In this document: positions 4,255-14,532 of the stretch, in pieces | Layout: every line of letters begins with the position of its first letter | How positions within the stretch are numbered: the stretch's first letter is position 1 | Source: Natrinema sp. CBA1119 | GTDB taxonomy: Archaea; Halobacteriota; Halobacteria; Halobacteriales; Natrialbaceae | Assembly: GCF_002572525.1 (NCBI RefSeq) | Contig: NZ_PDBS01000001.1 | Coordinates: 1,364,001-1,428,000 of the forward strand | Reading direction: 5' to 3' | Length of the DNA: 64,000 bases | Program-made: the position numbers and the translations under genes | The notes under the pieces: model-generated | Databases searched by the model: none | What the model saw: only the letters and a program-made list of their open reading frames with translations | Told to the model about the DNA's origin: nothing

Positions 4255-4623
4255 CGCCAGCGAATCGGACGGGTTCTTGCTAACGAATATTTTGTAACTT
4301 CGTGCTCAATTCAGGGGGAGTAACGTATCGCTCCAGACCGGTCAACCGGCGTGCGGTGGCGCGCGCTATGCCGCGGTGAATGCTAATGAACCGCGGCACT
4401 AAATTGCGCGAGGGATGAGCGAACGAACAGAGTGAGTGAGCGAATCGGCTGGGGAGGGTGTGGCCATTCCCTGTTGCCACGATAGCAGGACGCTTTGCTG
4501 CACTTAGCCACTAGCAGAACCACTGCACCATTCACGACACACACCGAACGAACCGATTCCAAAAGTCTCTCGATGAGAATCGATACGACACGCTCCTCGA
4601 ATCGACAAAAACCGCGAGAACCG
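4255..4623. other. Gene-free stretch containing a 9-bp hairpin
   Basis: No convincing reading frame is present. The notable element is a perfect 9-bp stem, tgccgcggt (4369-4377) with accgcggca (4390-4398) around the 12-base loop gaatgctaatga. The surrounding bases are less GC-rich than the neighbouring genes. Subterminal hairpins of this size are typical of IS200/IS605-type transposon ends, so a decayed element end is possible, but no transposase fragment was recognised. Confidence 0.5.
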
Positions 4624-4896
4624 CTAGACGCCCTCGAGGTCCGATCGGAACTCGGAGATCGCTGCAAGCGCATCCTCGAGACTCGACGCGACGTCGCCGC
4701 CCTCGTCGTCGGCGATCTCGTTCAGAATGTGTTCGTGGCGCGCGAGCTGGCCGTGATCCGGTCCGTGATCGGCCGTCGCATAGTCCTCGAATTTCGCCGC
4801 CTGCGTCTGGAGTCGGTCCCGCACCTCGTCGTCGGCCGTCGCGTCGGCCGCCCGTTCGATCGAGTCGGCCGCGCGTTGGAGTTCGTCTCGAGCCAT
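4624..4896 (-). CDS. Small haloarchaeal helical protein (DUF7553-like)
   Basis: The 90-residue acidic protein begins MARDELQRAADSIERAADAT and is predicted to be almost entirely helical. It has a distinctive central segment DHGPDHGQLARHEH with five histidines. The pattern matches a family widespread in Halobacteria that I believe is catalogued as DUF7553; the number is from memory. No enzymatic motif, signal peptide or membrane segment is seen. The histidine cluster could bind metal. It is monocistronic and faces away from the rubrerythrin-like gene. Confidence 0.75.
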   Translation of the reverse strand: MARDELQRAADSIERAADATADDEVRDRLQTQAAKFEDYATADHGPDHGQLARHEHILNEIADDEGGDVASSLEDALAAISEFRSDLEGV

Positions 4897-4986
4897 ACGC
4901 TTCTGTTTACCAGCAGGTACTAAAACGGTTTCAATACGATCCGACTATCAGAACGGTGTCCGGCGAAATTCAGCCGGGTCAGCGCC

Positions 4987-5070
4987 CCTGTTCGAGTGAG
5001 ATGCAGCGCACCTGATCGAGCGTGATTCAGTTCACTCGCTCGAGCGTGATTCAGCGCACCTGTTCGAGTC
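4987..5070. repeat. 24-bp tandem repeat spanning the 3' end of thiM (3.5 copies)
   Basis: Imperfect 24-bp units start at 4987, 5011, 5035 and 5059; a core is tcgagcgtgattcagcgca. The unit at 5059 begins the last codons of thiM on the minus strand, and the gene's TGA lies in the adjoining copy, so the gene tail with its stop has been copied repeatedly downstream. The unit is eight codons long, so reading past the stop would stay in frame. Confidence 0.85.
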
Positions 5071-5881
5071 GGTCCTCGAGGGAGAGACCGGCGACGGTAT
5101 CACCCGTCACGCCGGCGACGGCGTCGCGGAAGTTCGTCCGGTAGCTGCCCGGGCCCGCGTACCCCATGTCGGCCGCGCGCTCGCCGGCGAGACCGAACGC
5201 GAGCGTCCCGTGGACGGCGGCTTCGCGGGCGTCCTCGAGCGCGCCACAGAAGGTCGCGACGGTCACGCCGAGCATGCAGCCAGTGCCGACGACCTCGCCG
5301 AGCATCTCGTGGCCGGCGGTGAGCCGGACTGCGCCGTCGGCGTCCGCGACGACGTCGTCGACGCCGGAAGCGACAACGGTGGCACCGGTCGACTCGGCGA
5401 GAGAGCGGGATGTCCGCTCGATCGTCTCGTAGTCGCCGACGGATTCGACGCCCTTGACCTCGGCCTCGACGCCCGCGAGCGCGCTGATCTCTCCGTAATT
5501 GCCCTTGATCACGGTGAAGTCGATCACCGAGAGCAGGCTCTCGGCGACCGCCTCTCTCGAGGGCGTCGAGCCGACGCCGACGGGATCGAGGACGACCGGA
5601 ATGCCCCGTTCGTTCGCCTTCTTCCCGGCTTCGTGCATCGCCTCGACGCGGCCGTCGGGCACCTGACCGGTGTTGATCAGGACCGCACGCGCAAGGTCGG
5701 CCATCTCGCCGGCGTCGCCGAACGAGTCGGCCATCACCGGGAGCCCGCCCCAGTGAAGGGTCACGTTCGCGACGTCGTTGATCGTCACCGTGTTGGTCAG
5801 CGACTGGACGAGCGGTTCCGTTTCCCGAACCGTCCGAACCGATTCCGCGAAGTCGCCGGCGTCGATGTCGGTTACGCTCAT
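5051..5881 (-). CDS. thiM: Hydroxyethylthiazole kinase ThiM
   Basis: The 276-residue protein matches ThiM throughout, at normal length. It has LTNTVTINDVANVTLHWGG near the N-terminus (substrate pocket), DPVGVGSTPSR around residue 95, GNYGEISALAG in the middle, and the GTGCMLG phosphate-binding motif near residue 200 whose cysteine is conserved. It phosphorylates 4-methyl-5-(2-hydroxyethyl)thiazole with ATP in thiamine salvage. The start overlaps the stop of thiE by four bases, so the two are translationally coupled and supply both the kinase and the coupling step. The downstream tail is part of a 24-bp tandem repeat. Confidence 0.96.
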   Translation of the reverse strand: MSVTDIDAGDFAESVRTVRETEPLVQSLTNTVTINDVANVTLHWGGLPVMADSFGDAGEMADLARAVLINTGQVPDGRVEAMHEAGKKANERGIPVVLDPVGVGSTPSREAVAESLLSVIDFTVIKGNYGEISALAGVEAEVKGVESVGDYETIERTSRSLAESTGATVVASGVDDVVADADGAVRLTAGHEMLGEVVGTGCMLGVTVATFCGALEDAREAAVHGTLAFGLAGERAADMGYAGPGSYRTNFRDAVAGVTGDTVAGLSLEDRLEQVR

Positions 5882-6543
5882 TCCCCTTGTCCTCCGGTAT
5901 CGATCGCCTTCGGCGTTTCGACGGCGGCAGTCAGCGACTCGGTCGCGGCCGCCGGATCCGGAGCCGCCGTAATCGCACTAATCACGGCCACGCCGGCCGC
6001 GCCCGCCTCGACGACCGGCCGAGCGTTATCGGCCGTGATGCCGCCGATGCCGACGATCGGGATCGAGACCGCGTCGGCGATCGCGGCGATTCGCTCCGGA
6101 CCGACTCCGTCCTTGTCCGCGTCGACATCCTTCGAGGAAGTCCCGTAAACGGCCCCGACGCCGAGGTAGTCCGCCCCATCGGCGTCCGCCTCCCGCGCCG
6201 CCGCGACCGTCGACGCCGAACAGCCGACGATCGCATCCGAACCGAGCAGGTCGCGGGCGACCCCGACCGAAAGGTCCGATTGGCCGACGTGGACGCCGTC
6301 AGCGTCGATCGCTCGCGCGATGTCGACCCGGTCATTGACGAGCAGGTCGACGCCCGCCTCGGCCGTGAGTTCGCGCAGTTCGAGCCCCAGTTCGTACCGC
6401 GAGCGAGCGCTTGTTTCTTTCTCGCGCAACTGGATAGCGTCGACGCCGCCGTCGACGGCCGCGCGAACGATATCGAGCGTCGTCCGGTCGTCCGACAGCG
6501 ACGCCTGCGTGACGAAGTAGGTCCGCCAGTTCGATGGATTCAC
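5878..6543 (-). CDS. thiE: Thiamine-phosphate synthase ThiE
   Basis: The 221-residue TIM-barrel protein has the expected motifs: IQLREKETSARSRYEL near residue 40 (pyrophosphate and Mg binding), LLVNDRVDIARAIDADGVHVGQSDL near residue 65, GCSAST near residue 110, GVGAVYGTSSKDVD near residue 130, and VGIGGITADN near 175. It joins thiazole phosphate and HMP pyrophosphate to make thiamine monophosphate. It is the first gene of a thiE-thiM operon. I looked for a TPP riboswitch in the 128 bases upstream and saw no thi-box-like structure, so control is probably at the promoter. Confidence 0.96.
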   Translation of the reverse strand: MNPSNWRTYFVTQASLSDDRTTLDIVRAAVDGGVDAIQLREKETSARSRYELGLELRELTAEAGVDLLVNDRVDIARAIDADGVHVGQSDLSVGVARDLLGSDAIVGCSASTVAAAREADADGADYLGVGAVYGTSSKDVDADKDGVGPERIAAIADAVSIPIVGIGGITADNARPVVEAGAAGVAVISAITAAPDPAAATESLTAAVETPKAIDTGGQGE

Positions 6544-6670
6544 GAGAGATAGTAGTCGGTGGTCGAACTAAGCGGCTTCGGTCAGGTAGCCGTCTCGAGC
6601 CGCCGTTCGACCGATTCAGTGGCGGAACGAACGGTCCACGTTCTTTGCGCTCCGCGACATAGGGGCCGCC

Positions 6671-7360
6671 ATGGCCTTCGATCCCGACCGCGTGAGGACT
6701 GTCACGTTCGACTCCTACAGCACGCTCGTCGACGTCGATGCGACCGCGGCTGCCCTCGCGGAGCACGCGAACGTCGACGATCCAGCACCCATCTCGCAGA
6801 CCTGGCGGGAGCGCTCGATGCAGTACACGCTCGTCGCGAACCACCTCGAGGAATACGAGACGTTCTACGAGATCAACCGCGATGCGCTCGCGTACGCGCT
6901 GGCGGCCCACGGGATCGACCTCTCCGCCGACGAACGCGAGGAAATCCTCGAGGTCTACCACGAACTCGAGGTCTTCGACGACGTTCGGGAAAGCGTCGAG
7001 CGGTTGCACGAGGCCGGCTACGACACGTACGTCCTCTCGAACGGCAATCCGGAAATGCTCGAGTCGATGGTCGACCACGCCGGAATCGACGACCTCCTCG
7101 TCGATACCATCAGCGCGGACGAACTCGAGACGTTCAAACCCGACCCGGATCTCTACCGCCACGCCGCCGGGCGGACGGGGACGCCGATCGACGAACTCGT
7201 CCACGTCTCGGCGCTCTGGTTCGACGTGCAGGGCGCGATCCACGCGGGAATGCAGGGCGTCTGGCTCGACCGGAAGGGGAACCCGTGGGAGCCCTTCGGC
7301 GCGGAACCGGACCTGATCACCGAGGGGCTCGGGGAGCTGGCGGATCGACTGGGCTGCTGA
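6671..7360 (+). CDS. HAD-superfamily hydrolase, haloacid dehalogenase type II-like
   Basis: This 229-residue HAD protein has nucleophile motif TFDSYSTL with Asp14, motif II VLSNGNP, the FKPDPDLY lysine motif and a final motif region SALWFDVQGAIHAGM that resembles the VSAHxWDVxGAxxAG block of (S)-2-haloacid dehalogenases. A helical cap is inserted at about residues 20-95. The family hydrolyses 2-haloacids or phosphate monoesters through an aspartyl intermediate. The SALWFDVQGA block favours the dehalogenase subfamily, but phosphatase activity cannot be excluded. The gene is divergent from thiE and convergent with the acetyltransferase that follows. Confidence 0.85.
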   Translation: MAFDPDRVRTVTFDSYSTLVDVDATAAALAEHANVDDPAPISQTWRERSMQYTLVANHLEEYETFYEINRDALAYALAAHGIDLSADEREEILEVYHELEVFDDVRESVERLHEAGYDTYVLSNGNPEMLESMVDHAGIDDLLVDTISADELETFKPDPDLYRHAAGRTGTPIDELVHVSALWFDVQGAIHAGMQGVWLDRKGNPWEPFGAEPDLITEGLGELADRLGC

Positions 7361-7409
7361 GTCGGCGGGACGACCGGTGTCAGGAGAGCTGGAATCGGGT
7401 CGGCTGGAA

Positions 7410-8015
7410 TCATGACAGCTCGAGCGCGTCCTCGCCCGACCGCACGAGTGAGTCCCAGTCGTCGTCCTCGCGAACCGCCGGGAACGAGCGCGGCCGCTCG
7501 GGCGTCGCGGATTTCTCGGCGAGCGGCCGCCGCCACCAGGCCACGTCCTGCCACTCGTCCTGCGTGTAACCGATTCCCGGGAAGTCGACCAGTCGCTCGA
7601 ACCCCAGCCGCTCGTGGAACCGCTCGGTTTCGGGGTTGGGAACCGTCGTCACCGCGTAGGCGTCGCGGATTCCCTGTCGCTCGAGGACGGCGAACAGCGA
7701 CTCGTAGAGCGCGCGGCCGACCCCCGTCCGACGGGCCGAGTCGGCGACGTAGACCGACAGCTCGACGACCCACTCGTAGGCGCGGCGCTTCCGCAACGCC
7801 CCCGCGTAGGCGTAGCCGACGACCGCACCGTCGACCTCACAGACGAGCCAGGGATGCGTCTCGAGGGTTGATTCGATTCGATCGGCCAGCTCGGCCGTCG
7901 ACGGAACGGTTTCCTCGAAGGTGACCGCCGTCGACTCGCAGAAGGGCGCGTAGATATCGCGGACGGCGGCCGCGTCCGCCGGGGTCGCAACGCGAATGAG
8001 CGCGTCGGATGCCAT
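7410..8015 (-). CDS. GNAT N-acetyltransferase, phosphinothricin acetyltransferase-like
   Basis: The 201-residue protein has the PAT-type GNAT pattern: IRVATPADAAAVRDIYAPF at the start, TFEETVPS (substrate-side glutamates), VVGYAYAGALRKRRAYEW, ELSVYV and the acetyl-CoA loop RRTGVGRALYESL near residue 105, then HERLGFE. Relatives acetylate phosphinothricin, methionine sulfone or related amino acids. The last 30 residues are a haloarchaeal extension without known motif. It stands alone, convergent with the HAD gene. Confidence 0.88.
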   Translation of the reverse strand: MASDALIRVATPADAAAVRDIYAPFCESTAVTFEETVPSTAELADRIESTLETHPWLVCEVDGAVVGYAYAGALRKRRAYEWVVELSVYVADSARRTGVGRALYESLFAVLERQGIRDAYAVTTVPNPETERFHERLGFERLVDFPGIGYTQDEWQDVAWWRRPLAEKSATPERPRSFPAVREDDDWDSLVRSGEDALELS

Positions 8016-8612
8016 GGTCGAGGTTGCCGCGTCCCCGAAATAAGTCCGCTGAAGCGACTCGAGCGCGTCGTTTGTTCGGACTCCATACCAGCGCCGCCGT
8101 TTGACCGTCGGTCGTGGTTCTCGGACGAGGCACTGACAGAACGAACGCCAGTTCGGAGTCAGTCGACAGCTGAACGACAGCAGCGCCGAGTGCCGTCGCT
8201 ATCGAATTCGAATACGTAGAGAAGACGACTTCCCGTCATAGCTCTACCTTGTGACTAGAGGTACTTAAAGTCAGAATTGAGCTCGGATCGGAGTCGAACC
8301 GACTGATTACGAGACGCATACCGTTGTGACTGTCGAATAGTGGTACCCGAGAAGTGCGTTCTCCCGTCGTATCTTCACCTTGTGACCAGAAGCACTTAAA
8401 GAGAGAACGGGCCGAAAGACGACTCGGCATCCGCGAGGAGAGACGACACCGTCCGTCTCGATTTGTCACGGTCATTCACGCGGTTTCGGCGGCGTAATCA
8501 CAACTCCCATATCAGGCGCGGGGAGTATCTGGTTTCGAATGCAGCGCGTAACTGTTGCACGGCCGCCGAGTCCCTCGAGTCGCCAGCTCACTGCGAGGTC
8601 GAGCGCCGACTG
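8016..8612. promoter_or_regulatory. 600-bp gene-free region with a duplicated TATA-bearing block
   Basis: No credible gene is present. Two 46-base blocks (8231-8276 and 8362-8407), 131 bp apart, are about 80% identical and share tcccgtc, the exact octamer-plus ccttgtgac, an eight-base gap, and acttaaag. The acttaaag could be a TATA box on the plus strand, or ctttaagt on the minus strand, so the blocks may be tandem promoters for the transporter gene at 8613, for the acetyltransferase at 8015, or for a short untranslated RNA. The conserved ccttgtgac would be a factor site. The function is inferred; only the duplication is seen. Confidence 0.5.
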
Positions 8613-9572
8613 ATGGCCGATCTCCTCGGTATCTTCGGCTCCGCGATCGGCCCGATCGTCGCCATCGCGGCCGTCGGCTACGTGCTGGCCACGGTCAAGG
8701 AGATCGATCCGGAGCCGCTGAACACGGCCGTCGTCTACGTGTTAGCGCCCGCACTGGTCTTCCACAGCCTCGCCGTCACCGAACTCGAGGCGGCGACGCT
8801 GCTGCGAGTCACGGCTGGGATCGGTCTCTTCACCGCGGCGATGTGGGGGATCGCCGAGGTCGCCGGTCGCGCCGTCGGCGAGGAAGAGCCGGCGTTGAGC
8901 GCGCTCGTGCTCGTCGCGATCTTCTGTAACTCGGGAAACCTCGGCATCCCCGTCTCCGACTTCGCGTTCGGCGAGATCGGCCGCCAGACGGCCGTCCTCT
9001 TCCTCTCGGTCCAGTCCGTGCTGATGTACACCGTCGGCGTCTACGTCGCCTCCCGGAGCAGCGGCTCCGCCGGCCTCGAGGGCGTCCGCCGCGTGTTCTA
9101 CATTCCGCTGGCCTACGCCGTCATCGCGGCACTGCTCGCGCGAGCGCTGGATATCGTCCCGCCCGCCGACACGGCGGCGATGGAGACGCTCCAGCTCGTC
9201 GGCGACGCGTCGATCCCGCTGATGTTACTCATCCTCGGTATCCAGCTCGCGAGAGCCGATACCGCATCCGCAGTCTCTCGAGCCTGGCCCGCGACGGCGC
9301 TCAAGATGGGCGTCGCGCCCGTCGTCGGCCTCGGTATCGCGCTTCTGATCGGCTTCGAAAACCCGACCGTCGCTCGCGTGTTCGTGCTCGAGACCGCGAT
9401 GCCGGCCGCCGTGACGCCGCTGATCCTCGTCATCGAGTTCGCCGGCAGCGCCCGCTCGGAGGGCGTACTCGTCACCGAGTACGTCTCGACGTGCGTGTTC
9501 CTGACGACGCTGCTCGCGATCCCGGTTCTCACCGTCATGATCGCGATACTGCAGTCCGGTGTGATACTCTGA
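8613..9572 (+). CDS. AEC-family (auxin efflux carrier-like) membrane transporter
   Basis: The 319-residue protein from ATG 8613 has about ten membrane-spanning stretches in two five-helix halves. These include VAIAAVGYVLATVKEID, NTAVVYVLAPALVFHSLAV and CNSGNLGIPVSDFAFGE in the first half, and SIPLMLLILGIQLARA and AMPAAVTPLILVIEFA in the second. CNSGNLGIP is the characteristic broken-helix motif of the AEC/malate permease family. Upstream frames extend but add non-hydrophobic residues, so the internal ATG is preferred. Substrates are unknown; relatives export auxin or carry malate and malonate. Confidence 0.87.
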   Translation: MADLLGIFGSAIGPIVAIAAVGYVLATVKEIDPEPLNTAVVYVLAPALVFHSLAVTELEAATLLRVTAGIGLFTAAMWGIAEVAGRAVGEEEPALSALVLVAIFCNSGNLGIPVSDFAFGEIGRQTAVLFLSVQSVLMYTVGVYVASRSSGSAGLEGVRRVFYIPLAYAVIAALLARALDIVPPADTAAMETLQLVGDASIPLMLLILGIQLARADTASAVSRAWPATALKMGVAPVVGLGIALLIGFENPTVARVFVLETAMPAAVTPLILVIEFAGSARSEGVLVTEYVSTCVFLTTLLAIPVLTVMIAILQSGVIL

Positions 9573-10116
9573 GGAGACCACTCAGCGCTCGTCGCTGGCT
9601 CCGGCTCGGAGAGACGCTCGCACCACATCGGATGGTCTGTGAAGAAATTGAGAAGACGGAAGGGGGGTACACTCGCGTGGCCGCCGTACACCGTCGATGC
9701 ATCGTGACGGGGGTACGTTGCATCTGGGAGCTCATTCACGCTATGCGGCCACGCAAGTGTGTCAATATCTAGCACGAATGGGCATAAATAAGTTAGCCCG
9801 AGACAGTAGCAGGCCGAAACTCTCGAGAGAGGGAGATAGTAGTGTGGGTATCGTTCGCATGCATAGGTCGGCCCAAAGCCTATGGAAAAACACCGCACAC
9901 GATCGAGTGATCTGTGTCCGGCATCTACTACTGGCCCGGAGGCGGATCGAGCCGAGACACCGTTGCCGAATCCGATACTGGACGAACGGACAGCGAACCG
10001 GGGCGTCCCACCCCTTTCACGGGTCGGTTTCGAACGAGATGGACGAGCAGCGGCCGTCCCGGAAAGGCGAGAGAACGAACGTAATAGCGGAGAACAGCGG
10101 CTTCGAAGCGACGTGG
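9573..10116. other. Gene-free stretch of 544 bp
   Basis: No supported gene was found on either strand. It contains a perfect 10-bp inverted repeat, gcgtggccgc at 9675-9684 and gcggccacgc at 9745-9754, and a TATA-like cataaataag near 9783 set between gggc and gccc. It separates the transporter from the 3' end of the FrhB-like gene, so promoters would not be expected here, and an unannotated RNA is possible. Confidence 0.35.
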
Positions 10117-11796
10117 TCAGTGCCCCTGATCGTGGGGGTTGAGCGCCGTACCGTAGTTCTCGGCGTGGTCGGTGTACTCGATGAACCGCGGCGCGTCGGG
10201 GTCGAACGGCCGCTCGAGGCTCTCGAAGGCCTTCTTCTTGTCCCAGCCCTGGAGCTTGCCGACCGCGGACTTGTCCTCTAAGTCGTGGTAGTCCAGGTTC
10301 GGCTCGGTGAGCTCCCAGGCCTTCATCCCCTGCTCGGTCCGGACGATGACGCTCGAGTACTCGTCGCTCGAGCCGACGGAGCCGACGGTGATGTCCGAAC
10401 AGAAGCCGGTGAAGTCGGCACACTCGTCACAGCCCTTGAGCGCAGCGTCGTGGAAGTTCTCGATGTCCTCCTCGACGATCATCTCGCCGTCGTGGTCGTA
10501 GACCATCATCTTGCCGTTGAGAACGTCCATCTTGCCGATCTCCGACGGCGAGATGCCGCGTTGCTCCTCTAGCTGCTCGCCCATGAGGCTGTGGTAGTTG
10601 AAGTTCTTGGTACACATCAGCGCGATCGTGTAGTCCACAGCTCGAATACCCTCGTTCTGGTCCTGGTAGTCCCACTCGAAGTCCTGCAGGGCGCGGATGC
10701 CCTCGATCTCACACGGCGTGCCGACGATCGCGATGCTGAGTTCGTCCCAGGACTTGTCGGGGAGCTTGTGCTCCCACTGCTCTAAGTCGAGATTTCCCAG
10801 CGCCATCGTCTGGTTGTAGACGGTACCGGCGTTTTCGATGAGCTCCTCGGTCGTCGTCGCGAGGTAGCTCTCGGCCTTCCACTCTTGCTCGTCGCTCTCG
10901 GTCGCGACGAGCGCGCCGTCGATCTCGCCCTCCTCGAGCAGCGTCGCGAGGACGCCGGTAACGACGCCGCCGTCCTGGGCGTTGTCGGTCCAGTCGTCCT
11001 CGACCTTCGCGGAGAACTCCGTGATCGGATCGCCAGCGCCCTTGACGTTGTCGTCGCCGCCGGTGATCTTCCACTGGCGCTCGTAGCGCAGGCCGCCGCG
11101 GGGACAGAAGTCCCAACAGAGCGAACAGCCGGTGCACATCTTGACGAGTTCCGGCTCCCCGTCGTCGCCGATCCCGATGGAGTCCGACGGGCAGGCGGCG
11201 ACACAGGTCCCACACTGGATACAGCGGCCCTCGTCGATGACTGCCTCGTCCAGTTCCATGAACCAGGTCTTCTCGTCCGGCGTCTCGATATCGTTCATCC
11301 GCGAGCGGATCGAGTACTCCGGCGTCTCGAGGTCGACGCCCTCGGGAATCCCGACGCGCGCGTCGGGCGAGCCGTTGTCGACGTCCTGACTGACGTTCTC
11401 GGCGGGCTCGGTGAACTCGAGGTCGCCGAGTTCGCCCATCTCGTCGACGTTTGCCACACCTGCGCCGTCGGTCGCGACCGGCTGCGTCTCCGACTCGGCG
11501 TCGGCAGCCGTCTTCTCGCCGCAGGTGCAGGTGTTCGGCGAGCAGCTATCGTCGCTGCTGGCGTCGGCGGCACCGCTGCCGCCGTCAGTTCGAATTGCCC
11601 CCTCTCGAGCGTGATCCTCTCGGGAACGTGACGCACCGCCGCTGGCTTCAGGAACCATCACGGCGTCGTCATCGCCGCTCGAGTCGGGAACGCGTGGGAA
11701 TCGACGCTCGTCGTCCTCGCTCCCTCGCGGGTCGCTTCGCTCCCCGCTCGATCCGTTCGAGGACTCACTGCGTTCGTCCTCGCTATTAGTCCCCAT
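10117..11796 (-). CDS. FrhB-like F420 dehydrogenase/ferredoxin-domain protein paired with a siroheme reductase
   Basis: The 559-residue protein (ATG at 11796) has a low-complexity acidic N-terminal 130 residues containing a CSPNTCTC cysteine cluster. A two-cluster ferredoxin domain follows at about 185-235 (CIQCGTCVAACP and CTGCSLCWDFCP), then the FrhB N-terminal region with VVTGVLATLLEEGEIDGA and the FrhB C-terminal region with GTPCEIEGIRAL and CDECADFTGFCSDITVGSVGS. FrhB proteins bind flavin, oxidise F420H2 and pass electrons to iron-sulfur clusters. The gene overlaps the end of the siroheme reductase gene by 11 bases, so it is almost certainly its electron-delivering partner. The electron donor (F420H2 or ferredoxin) is not proven by sequence. 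Confidence 0.85.
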   Translation of the reverse strand: MGTNSEDERSESSNGSSGERSDPRGSEDDERRFPRVPDSSGDDDAVMVPEASGGASRSREDHAREGAIRTDGGSGAADASSDDSCSPNTCTCGEKTAADAESETQPVATDGAGVANVDEMGELGDLEFTEPAENVSQDVDNGSPDARVGIPEGVDLETPEYSIRSRMNDIETPDEKTWFMELDEAVIDEGRCIQCGTCVAACPSDSIGIGDDGEPELVKMCTGCSLCWDFCPRGGLRYERQWKITGGDDNVKGAGDPITEFSAKVEDDWTDNAQDGGVVTGVLATLLEEGEIDGALVATESDEQEWKAESYLATTTEELIENAGTVYNQTMALGNLDLEQWEHKLPDKSWDELSIAIVGTPCEIEGIRALQDFEWDYQDQNEGIRAVDYTIALMCTKNFNYHSLMGEQLEEQRGISPSEIGKMDVLNGKMMVYDHDGEMIVEEDIENFHDAALKGCDECADFTGFCSDITVGSVGSSDEYSSVIVRTEQGMKAWELTEPNLDYHDLEDKSAVGKLQGWDKKKAFESLERPFDPDAPRFIEYTDHAENYGTALNPHDQGH

Positions 11797-13495
11797 GCGC
11801 AACACCTCGTGCAACCGGCGCGTCCGCCCCTTGCATGATCGTCCGGAGTCGCTCGTTGTCGACGCCGCGACACCACTCGTAGAACTTCTCGCCGTCGGCG
11901 CGATCCGCGGAGTAGGCCTCGAACAGCTGCTCGAGGGCCGGGATCACGGAATCAGCGGGAACGGCGCTCTCGACCCAATCGAGGAACTCGTTGTCGGCTC
12001 CCAGCGAGCCGCCGAGTCCGAAGTCCATCCCTTCGACGATGTTGTCGCCCTCGGCGTTGGTACTGTTCTCGTCCTCGAGTTTGACGGTCTCGCCGCGGAA
12101 GCCGATGTCGGCGATCTGGGGCTGGGCGCACGACGCGGAACAGCCGGACATGTGCATCCGGATGGCCTCGATGTCGTCGGGGACGTCGATGCGCTCGTCG
12201 AGTTGGCGGGCCCAGCGCTTGGTGCGCTTTTTCGTCTCGATGATGGCGTAGTTACAGAACTCGTTGCCCGTACAGCCGACCGCGCCCCGCGAGAACGGCC
12301 CCGGATCGGGGCTGTACTCCTGTGCGAACGGCTCCGCGAGCAGGTCGTCGACGTTCTCGTCGGGAATGTGGGTGATGAGGAAGTTCTGGTCGGTCGCGAG
12401 GCGCACGGAGGCGTCCTCGGTCCCGTACGTTTCAGCGGCGCGGGCGGCCGCGGCGAACTCGTCGCCGCCCATGCGGCCGGCGATGACGTTGAAGCCGACG
12501 TAGTTGAGCCCGTCCTGCTTCTGGTCGTTGACGCCGACGTGGTCGCCCTGATAGCCGACGGTCAGGTTCTGGCCACCGGTCGGCAGGTCGATCGTACAGC
12601 GGTCGCGGACCGCTTCCTCGAACTTCTCGGGGCCGAGCTGTTCGACGAGGTAGCGCATGCGGCAGACGCCGCGGTTGTTGCGGTCGCCGATCTCCTTGAA
12701 CGTCTGGGCGACGGCGCGGCAAAACTCGACGGCGTCTTCGGGTTTGATGAAGGCGTCGAGTTCCGAACCCATTCGCGGGCCGTCGGAGAGGCCGCCACCG
12801 ACGCGGGCGTGGAAGCCGTAGAGGTGCTCGCCGTCAATCTCCTTCTTCGCGGGGACGAGTCCGACATCGTTGATCTGGGACTGCGCACAGTCGTGAGCGC
12901 AGCCGGTGATCGTGATCTTGAACTTCCGCGGGAGGTTGGCGTACTCCCGGTTCTCGGTGAAGAAATCGGAGACGGCCTCGATGACCGGCTGTGCGTTGAA
13001 ACACTCATGATCGTCGAGTCCGGCCGCGGGGCATCCAAGAACGTTCCGGGCGGAGTCACCGCAGCCCTGGACCGTCGTCAGGCCGACCTCGTCGTAGCGG
13101 TTCCACATCTCGGGGACGTCCTCGACGCGGATCCAGTGTTTCTGGATGTCCTGACGGGTCGTGATGTCGAGATAGGCATCTCCCCAGAGTTCGTTCTGCG
13201 CTTCGCCGCCGTACTCCTCGGGGGCGACCGCGAGGTCCTCGGTGACCTCGCCGATCACTTCGGCCTGCTCGGGAGTGAGCTTCCCGCCCGGCACTTTCGT
13301 CCGGATCATGAAGTAGCCCTCCTGCTTCTGGGCGTACATCCCGGCCCACTTCAGGCGCTCCCACTCGCCGCCGCCGGCGCGCTCCTCGATCTCCTCGAAG
13401 GAAAGCTCCTCGTCGGCGTAGTCGTAGACGTCGTCGATAACGTCGAGCGGGTGTTTGTTCTGTTTGTATTGTTCTGTTGTATTCACGCGAACCAC
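11786..13495 (-). CDS. Siroheme [4Fe-4S] nitrite/sulfite reductase
   Basis: The 569-residue protein has the two ferredoxin-like half-domains and siroheme folds of the assimilatory nitrite/sulfite reductase family: YFMIRTKVPGGKLTPEQ, TTRQDIQKHWI and GCGDSARNVLGCPAAG in the first half. Cluster and siroheme cysteines occur as GCTGNEFCNYA (C-x5-C, near residue 406) and GCSASCAQPQ (C-x3-C, near 448). CTGNxFC with ETKKR downstream resembles ferredoxin-type nitrite reductases more than dissimilatory sulfite reductase, but substrate choice is uncertain. It starts at GTG 13495 or possibly GTG 13486. The FrhB-like gene overlaps its 3' end. No nitrate reductase or transporter lies nearby, which leaves sulfite a real possibility. 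Confidence 0.9.
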   Translation of the reverse strand: MVRVNTTEQYKQNKHPLDVIDDVYDYADEELSFEEIEERAGGGEWERLKWAGMYAQKQEGYFMIRTKVPGGKLTPEQAEVIGEVTEDLAVAPEEYGGEAQNELWGDAYLDITTRQDIQKHWIRVEDVPEMWNRYDEVGLTTVQGCGDSARNVLGCPAAGLDDHECFNAQPVIEAVSDFFTENREYANLPRKFKITITGCAHDCAQSQINDVGLVPAKKEIDGEHLYGFHARVGGGLSDGPRMGSELDAFIKPEDAVEFCRAVAQTFKEIGDRNNRGVCRMRYLVEQLGPEKFEEAVRDRCTIDLPTGGQNLTVGYQGDHVGVNDQKQDGLNYVGFNVIAGRMGGDEFAAAARAAETYGTEDASVRLATDQNFLITHIPDENVDDLLAEPFAQEYSPDPGPFSRGAVGCTGNEFCNYAIIETKKRTKRWARQLDERIDVPDDIEAIRMHMSGCSASCAQPQIADIGFRGETVKLEDENSTNAEGDNIVEGMDFGLGGSLGADNEFLDWVESAVPADSVIPALEQLFEAYSADRADGEKFYEWCRGVDNERLRTIMQGADAPVARGVAHGD

Positions 13496-13817: not shown

Positions 13818-14453
13818 TTAATTCAAACAGGCCACGAGTCCTCCCTGCCGTCGCGGGTCGGGCTCGAGTGACAGATTTTCGGCGACCCCGTCGTATCGCG
13901 CCCGAAGAACGATGTTCTGGTCAATGTAGTACGTAACACGGATATCCCACTCGTCGCGCGGATCGGCGGCCGACAGTTGGGTTCCCAGGGTCAGGTCATA
14001 GCGAAGCGCCACCATGACCGCGTCCGCGTTCGTGGACGATCCGATCGCAGCCGTTCGATGGGCACTGCGGCGAAGATCGAACGTCCGTGTCATGTTTCCG
14101 AACTGGGCGATAAACGCGTTCCGTCGGTACGCTCGCTCGAACTCGGTCACGTACTCGGCCGCGCTGTCCACCAGCAACGGCGGCGATCGGTCCGACGAAT
14201 CGCTCGCCTCCTCGGACACGCTCCCCCACGGAAGTGACGGGTACGGGCGAGGCGTGAGCGCGCCGTCATCCGTCGGCGTGTCCGGCTCGGGACGCGTTAC
14301 TGACTGACAGTCGTACCAGTCGGCGGGGACGGTTCCCGACTCGAGCGGCGGTCTGTTTGTGGCGTTCGATACGTGCTCGAAACCGCCCGTCGCGACCGCC
14401 GCCGTGGTCACAACCGACGCGAGGAGCGCACGTCGAGACCGAGGGCGGTTCAT
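13818..14453 (-). CDS. Exported protein of unknown function
   Basis: The ATG at 14453 gives MNRPRSRRALLASVVTTAAV, a short twin-arginine-like or Sec signal with RSRR before a hydrophobic stretch; there is no lipobox cysteine. The 211-residue product has a Pro/Ser/Asp-rich middle and a C-terminal half with beta-type segments (VMVALRYDLTLGTQ, DIRVTYYIDQNIVLRARYDG). No catalytic motif or known family was recognised. It is downstream of and opposite to nothing informative, ending about 320 bp before the reductase operon start. Confidence 0.6.
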   Translation of the reverse strand: MNRPRSRRALLASVVTTAAVATGGFEHVSNATNRPPLESGTVPADWYDCQSVTRPEPDTPTDDGALTPRPYPSLPWGSVSEEASDSSDRSPPLLVDSAAEYVTEFERAYRRNAFIAQFGNMTRTFDLRRSAHRTAAIGSSTNADAVMVALRYDLTLGTQLSAADPRDEWDIRVTYYIDQNIVLRARYDGVAENLSLEPDPRRQGGLVACLN

Positions 14454-14532
14454 ACGCAAAGATCTCAGACGGTCAATAAGTGTCTTCTGAAATAGTACCA
14501 AACTGAGAAGTCGATGATCGCAGGCCAGCAGC

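Follow-up and report, generated by a model that had tools for sequence, protein, structure and literature searches.

A haloarchaeal gene pair predicted to encode an F420H2-dependent siroheme sulfite reductase, and its relatives across Halobacteria

Introduction

What electron donor, and what substrate, might be served by a siroheme reductase whose gene overlaps that of an FrhB-type protein? The question is raised by a two-gene locus of the haloarchaeon Natrinema sp. CBA1119, which lies in the window analysed here, a 64,000-nucleotide stretch of contig NZ_PDBS01000001.1 (positions 1,364,001-1,428,000, forward strand). A first-pass annotation, made from the DNA letters alone, had read the locus as a split version of Fsr, the F420-linked sulfite reductase of methanogens, and had put forward a link to F420. 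The pair had, however, already been predicted in 2012 by Susanti and Mukhopadhyay as putative aFsr-alpha and aFsr-beta of haloarchaea in the relevant passages of PMC3448663, and the central idea of the annotation is therefore a rediscovery. PMC9295563 uses the aFsr name again, in the legend to a figure, and no experimental test of aFsr was found in the open-licence PMC literature. As described in those passages of PMC3448663, aFsr is a NirA/aSir-type reductase gene beside a homologue of Fsr-N, the latter combining an FrhB core with two N-terminal ferredoxin-type clusters; the window pair has this gene arrangement and its FrhB-type protein this architecture, a likeness by description.

Results

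Gene layout and pairing across Halobacteria

The two genes lie on the minus strand, the reductase gene preceding that of the FrhB-type protein. Their overlap of 11 bases and the cysteine motifs first quoted for them are all present: GCTGNEFC and GCSASC in the reductase, CIQCGTC and CTGCSLC in the FrhB-type protein. The best start of the FrhB-type gene is the ATG at 11794-11796 (minus strand), the mechanical open reading frame (ORF) opening 18 bases upstream at a TTG. The layout is as follows:

11786-13495, minus strand: aFsr-alpha, NirA/aSir-type siroheme [4Fe-4S] reductase, 569 amino acids (aa), GTG start
10117-11796, minus strand: aFsr-beta, FrhB-type F420H2 dehydrogenase subunit (by homology), 559 aa from the ATG
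11786-11796, minus strand: 11-base overlap of the reductase stop and the FrhB ATG, ATGGGGACTAA (from the sequence)
11803-11808, minus strand: Shine-Dalgarno match GAGGTG within the reductase gene, 6 bases ahead of the FrhB ATG

The survey covered an even sample of 292 genomes from across the class Halobacteria, of which 90 contained FrhB_FdhB_C and 258 NIR_SIR. These yielded 111 FrhB loci, namely that of the window and every locus listed outside it (L007-L116), and at 108 of them a NirA-type gene stood directly upstream on the same strand. Pairing in relatives, which had been set beforehand as a check on the annotation, was thus borne out with the same gene order. Pairing of FrhB with NirA is above chance, and the locus is a real, conserved two-gene unit. 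It occurs in two forms (class A, 83 loci, the window type; class B, 25 loci), and a NirA protein at least 70% identical to that of the window occurs in 83 genomes, which coincide fully with the 83 that carry a class A pair; the next NirA matches are of a second clade, the score dropping from 948 bits to 572. The window's genome has a single FrhB gene, the one in the window, and in the control genome, that of Haloferax volcanii, PF04432 had no match. Formation of a complex by the two products is suggested by the pairing and the overlap.

Overlap of the ORFs was found in 83/83 class A pairs, with lengths that are overstated by the use of mechanical ORFs with the furthest start. In a crude search, a Shine-Dalgarno match preceded FrhB in 45/83 class A and 22/25 class B pairs, so that on this count translational coupling is no general feature of the pairs. 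Distances of the two pair members correlated closely with each other (r 0.989, 108 pairs), much of which is explained by shared descent alone; a mirror-tree comparison against FtsY, with 12 loci passing the filter, gave a partial r of 0.58 against a permuted maximum of 0.63 and was not decisive.

The three unpaired FrhB loci are of two kinds. Two carry a lone FrhB (L009:7301-8584 and L024:6859-8142), about 70% identical to that of the window, with neither an N-terminal arm nor an adjoining reductase. The third (L116:7315-8231) is a broken, decaying class B locus, with FrhB in two overlapping pieces and the fused reductase absent beside it, its neighbours being genes seen at other class B loci.

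Affiliation of the reductase and the two clades of pairs

Pfam assigned only NIR_SIR and NIR_SIR_ferr to the reductase, with no Fer4 (inserted ferredoxin) match, and FrhB_FdhB_N/C plus a 4Fe-4S dicluster to the FrhB-type protein, whose nearest named relatives are from Natrinema (98% identity). NCBIfam placed the same groups at the top for both proteins, all of the matches listed being under their cut-offs. Against PDB, the top match of the reductase was plant nitrite reductase (1e-82), with Fsr far behind (7e-9). The annotation was thus right about two partner genes, an FrhB protein of the Fsr/Frh/F420-reductase group and a reductase of the assimilatory NirA branch, whereas its wording of a "split Fsr" does not hold, the reductase being distant from the corresponding half of Fsr. 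Fission of an Fsr gene was rejected, since the reductase halves come from different branches, and in the passages of PMC3448663 concerned the two reductases are traced to different precursors (aSir and Dsr-LP). The pair is better called an F420-linked sulfite reductase with a reductase of the NirA/aSir branch. The residues relevant to its catalysis, located by alignment, are:

12917-12925, minus strand: K191 and K193 (K-F-K), the lysines at the substrate site of the reductase
12128-12274, minus strand: cysteines C408, C414, C452 and C456 of the siroheme-bridged [4Fe-4S] cluster of the reductase

The four siroheme-cluster cysteines were invariant in the 118 reductases aligned.

Class A reductases are about 570 aa long, and the FrhB that follows them has a long arm at its N-terminus; class B reductases reach about 800 aa through an N-terminal rhodanese part, and their FrhB has no arm. 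Two rhodanese stretches were recognized by Pfam in 7/7 class B reductases scanned (L055 and six more), the best PDB match of the rhodanese type in L055 being the thiosulfate sulfurtransferase 3hzu (1e-29). The YCNTARRLS loop of the second rhodanese was identical in 25/25 class B proteins, by which the catalytic loop is judged to be intact. All 25 class B loci (among them L055:4541-8218) consist of a rhodanese-NirA fusion followed by FrhB, and class B is a candidate F420H2-linked thiosulfate/sulfite reductase. Rhodanese-NirA fusions of the same architecture were described in PMC11237513 for 19 of 529 halobacterial NirA proteins, with a suggested sulfur role; the passages concerned make no link to FrhB, whereas the 25 fusions here were found via FrhB and all precede one. 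The reductase of the window, unlike these, is unfused, and no locus of the class B type is present in its genome, the sole FrhB being that of the window. At 16 class A loci a rhodanese gene is also found in the vicinity (Pfam on one), but kilobases from the pair, and these genes were not counted as evidence.

A reductase tree was built from 57 sequences, to which class A contributed 22 of its 83, class B all of its 25 and the unpaired loci fetched the other 10. Classes A and B together were split from the 10 unpaired reductases by a 100/100 branch, and each class formed one side of a branch (100/100 for A and 99/97 for B). The row of the NasA-linked reductase, a further type considered below, is long in this tree. 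A single origin of the FrhB-reductase pairing is likely, not proven, from this topology, the tree being unrooted.

Sulfite or nitrite as substrate

In methanogen Fsr, sulfite is held by two arginines and two lysines (460, 462) that are conserved across sulfite reductases, according to the passages of PMC10229431 drawn on here. Both K-x-K-spaced substrate lysines are shared by Fsr and the window reductase. The lysine pair was found in class A (83/83), in class B (25/25) and in all 9 unpaired loci read, around which no nitrate cluster was seen. The window's genome encodes two siroheme reductases, the pair's and that of locus L006, and in the latter the second lysine is Asn (K-x-N), so that the pair contains the only K-x-K enzyme of the genome. 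Asn also stands at this position in plant nitrite reductase chains (PDB alignments), and an Asn226Lys change in tobacco reportedly raises sulfite reduction.

The L006 reductase adjoins NasA (NF041323, 1226 bits against a cut-off of 1000) and a transporter. Its relatives (at least 66% identity) occur in 129 of the 292 genomes, in at least 108 of the 129 within 15 kb of NasA. Among the matches listed, proximity to NasA within the same distance was seen for 0/83 class A, 2/25 class B (G089 and G269) and none of 150 unpaired-type reductases. The L006 locus itself (4283-10059) is where this genome has its cluster for nitrate assimilation, made up of NasA, an MFS transporter and the K-x-N reductase, with no FrhB.

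Sulfite is the likelier substrate because K-x-K is present in 108/108 paired reductases, as opposed to K-x-N and no FrhB in the NasA-linked reductase of the window's genome. The first-pass proposal of "nitrite or sulfite" is narrowed accordingly to sulfite as the more probable of the two. The rhodanese-fused clade is a strong pointer towards sulfur on this question.

That the pair is instead an F420H2-dependent nitrite reductase, or a bifunctional enzyme with nitrite as its main substrate, appears unlikely. This alternative takes support from NCBIfam, where ferredoxin-nitrite reductase PRK09566 comes out on top (390 bits, under the cut-off of 594), and from the plant nitrite reductases as best PDB matches, but NCBIfam gives the same ranking for reductases of the unpaired and of the NasA-linked type. 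Several observations do weigh against sulfite. In G107 and G193, both of the window's genus, NasA is present and yet a class A protein is the sole siroheme reductase found, and in these two genomes the paired enzyme may serve nitrite; methanogen Fsr reduces nitrite as well as sulfite, as stated in the part of PMC10202398 consulted; the unpaired reductase (of type K-x-K in 9/9 read) also occurs in 45 of the 90 pair-bearing genomes; and genes of sulfur assimilation were not seen next to the pair in the window. Nitrite as main substrate is opposed by the separate NasA-linked reductase in the same genome and in the others counted above, by the K-x-K lysines, by the fusion of the sister clade to rhodanese, and by 23 of the 90 pair-bearing genomes, in which both NasA (E<=1e-100) and the NasA-linked reductase are missing. 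Apart from the 45 pair-bearing genomes with the unpaired type, 30/90 have only the NasA-linked type besides the pair and 15/90 have neither type. A strictly complementary distribution of unpaired K-x-K reductases and pairs failed, half of the pair-bearing genomes having both.

F420 as electron donor

The FrhB-type protein carries the following features, the ferredoxin-type motifs being located by alignment and the core by Pfam and alignment:

11191-11223, minus strand: ferredoxin-type cluster motif 1, C192, C195, C198 and C202
11104-11136, minus strand: ferredoxin-type cluster motif 2, C221, C224, C227 and C231
10303-11013, minus strand: FrhB core, with QDGG 274-277 (flavin adenine dinucleotide, FAD), cluster-1 cysteines C362/C395/C456/C459 and GSVGS loop 472-476

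By sequence, the closest structures to the FrhB core were 9tn7, an Fsr-like chain of 613 aa (5e-33), 8riu, the F420-reducing module of a CO dehydrogenase (1e-30), Fsr 7np8 (6e-30) and FrhB (9e-30); the 8riu and 8rja complexes have measured F420 activity, as given in the passages of PMC11493965 used here. A structure model of the last 390 residues was weak (mean predicted local distance difference test score, pLDDT, 56), enough for fold ranks and not for the cofactor site, and matched F420-reductase modules, Fsr and FrhB; the search with it ranked 8riu, Fsr and Frh at the top, HCAR behind them and FdhB lower still. The window's genome has a gene for CofD, a protein of F420 synthesis (9e-107).

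Residue roles for the FAD and clusters of FrhB were taken from the relevant parts of PMC3591093 and PMC3930138. The four cluster-1 and eight ferredoxin cysteines were kept in 110/110 proteins aligned, as were Q, G and G of QDGG, its D being present in 83/83 class A and 17/25 class B; QDGG and GSVGS together were kept in all 83 class A proteins. At K422, nearby, Lys was found in 83/83 class A and 7/25 class B.

Other observations weigh against F420. Two lysines have been proposed to lie near FAD and F420 in FrhB: at the position of the first, Lys75, class A proteins have Val, Phe or Ile (83/83) and the 25 class B proteins never Lys, and at the last lysine of IGKGK, Lys was found in 58/83 class A and 1/25 class B. 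Moreover, F420-using FdhB (7bkb_E) matched at 1.1, as distant as the ferredoxin-dependent HCAR of the same fold (0.87), and fell below HCAR in the structure search, so that distance to HCAR alone cannot settle the donor. In the sequence alignment, however, 8riu has Asn at the Lys75 position and its complex nevertheless reduces F420, and the loss of the lysine therefore weakens the F420 reading without refuting it. Conservation of the F420-binding residues had been named beforehand as a check, and the outcome is divided: the Fe-S cysteines, FAD motif and GSVGS are kept in class A, while the proposed lysines are lost or only partly kept.

A different donor altogether would be used if the FrhB-type subunit took electrons from ferredoxin or another source, as HCAR does, and passed them as an adaptor to the siroheme subunit without F420. 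The altered lysines, the fold shared with HCAR and the reductase relatives of other haloarchaea that have no adjoining FrhB (9 loci read) speak for this possibility, which is nonetheless improbable given the gap in sequence match between HCAR and Fsr 7np8 (0.87 against 6e-30), the rank of HCAR under the Fsr, Frh and Ethanoperedens modules, though over FdhB, and the presence of CofD. F420 thus remains a likely but unproven donor.

Cysteine arm of aFsr-beta

A further feature of the window FrhB-type protein lies ahead of its ferredoxin domain:

11521-11544, minus strand: CSPNTCTC (residues 85-92), of the form C-x4-C-x-C, within the acidic arm at the N-terminus of aFsr-beta

The motif had been picked out in the annotation as unusual, and it is confirmed here and found to be widespread. 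The pattern C-x(1-6)-C-x-C occurs in 75/83 class A arms, in 0/25 class B and in neither of the two lone FrhB proteins; shuffled class A arms carried it in 0.34 cases on average and at most 3 (500 shuffles). Arms were taken from mechanical ORFs, and a few upstream ends possibly lie before the true start. The spacer letters vary (CSPDTCTC, CGCGSSCGC, CGSNCGC) and the cysteines are constant, the motif standing 89-125 residues (median 99) from the first ferredoxin cysteine. Of eight class A arms without the pattern, two (L036 and L064) have another cysteine spacing and six have no cysteines in such an arrangement. At least four histidines were present in the 30 residues ahead of the motif in 6/75 arms.

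The arm could be either a metal site or a thiol/persulfide carrier. The latter is weakly favoured because the arm is absent where rhodanese is fused, which weakly suggests a carrier role. On a broader and rather doubtful proposal, the paired reductases would each have a built-in sulfur module, a tandem rhodanese in class B or a flexible arm of three or four cysteines on the class A FrhB, comparable to the DsrC arm of Dsr; the thiols of the arm would ferry sulfur to the siroheme or away from it, or the arm would provide sulfite out of bound thiosulfate, and the complex would be an F420H2-driven sulfite/thiosulfate reductase with its own relay. Plain metal binding by the arm is the main alternative to such a relay.

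Genomic context and sulfur supply

Named neighbours of the window pair are FtsY, prefoldin, eIF-6, ThiE, a GNAT and a HAD protein and a membrane-transport (Mem_trans) protein, and 50/83 class A loci have a gene of the FtsY/SRP54 type at a distance of no more than 5 kb. An operon with sulfate assimilation was considered and dropped, no such genes being among the neighbours. A search of the window's genome for ATP sulfurylase (PF01747) gave no match, and thiosulfate, sulfonates or the medium are therefore as likely a source of sulfite as sulfate. The genome encodes two PAPS-family proteins, one a CysD-like match at 84.5 bits, far under the cut-offs (195), and the other TtuA-like.

Adjoining the pair at 13818-14501 is an ORF of 227 aa that lacks a Pfam match and is hydrophobic over a stretch close to the N-terminus, the family of which was also seen near 15 class A loci. 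Elsewhere, a cysteine-containing protein of 113 aa with no Pfam or NCBIfam match (L123:6677-7018) is encoded directly upstream of an unpaired K-x-K reductase, with relatives at L120 and L124.

Discussion

Taken as a whole, the analysis favours a reading in which each gene encodes one subunit of aFsr, a siroheme sulfite reductase that depends on F420H2. We assign this reading a probability of roughly two in three; the cofactors, electron path, donor and substrate of the enzyme are predicted from homology. A hydride from F420H2 would pass to the FAD of the FrhB-type subunit, from which single electrons would flow through that subunit's own [4Fe-4S] cluster 1 to the two ferredoxin-domain clusters. 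The ferredoxin domain would dock on the NirA-type subunit at the site of soluble ferredoxin and feed the siroheme-[4Fe-4S], where sulfite would be reduced to sulfide with six electrons from three F420H2. This built-in domain would stand in both for the soluble ferredoxin of ordinary NirA/SiR and for the two inserted clusters of Fsr; with no inserted ferredoxin in the reductase by Pfam, the electron wire would be shorter than in Fsr.

Methanogen Fsr (7np8 and 7npa; parts of PMC10229431) and the window pair have in common an FrhB/FAD module with an N-terminal two-cluster ferredoxin leading to siroheme-[4Fe-4S]. Fsr is, however, one fused chain whose reductase half is Dsr-type with an inserted two-cluster ferredoxin, whereas the window pair consists of two genes, reductase then FrhB, and has a NirA-type reductase. 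The F420 modules of the CO dehydrogenase and Fwd of Ca. Ethanoperedens (8riu and 8rja; passages of PMC11493965) are similar in that an FrhB-like subunit connects F420 with another redox enzyme, and in the CO dehydrogenase module this subunit also has an N-terminal ferredoxin domain; their partners oxidise C1 compounds in the direction of F420 reduction, unlike the window pair. The ferredoxin nitrite reductases of nas clusters (NasD-like) differ in their linkage to NasA, which class A lacks among the NasA matches listed. F420H2 oxidase and siroheme reductase thus appear to have been joined at least twice, as the Dsr-type fusion Fsr and as the NirA-type pair.

Within the searches made, four elements are new: rhodanese-fused reductases are linked to FrhB, the pairing is counted from both sides, the paired enzymes are set apart from the NasA-linked reductase, and a cysteine arm is shown to be conserved; the parts of PMC3448663 consulted mention neither the arm, the rhodanese-fused clade nor pair statistics. 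A 2021 review of open annotation issues (PMC8305020, in the passages concerned), whose authors knew of only one reported F420-dependent reaction in halophilic archaea, called the role of F420 there "enigmatic". With FrhB in 90 of 292 genomes, the pair is a concrete and widespread candidate for a role of F420 in haloarchaea.

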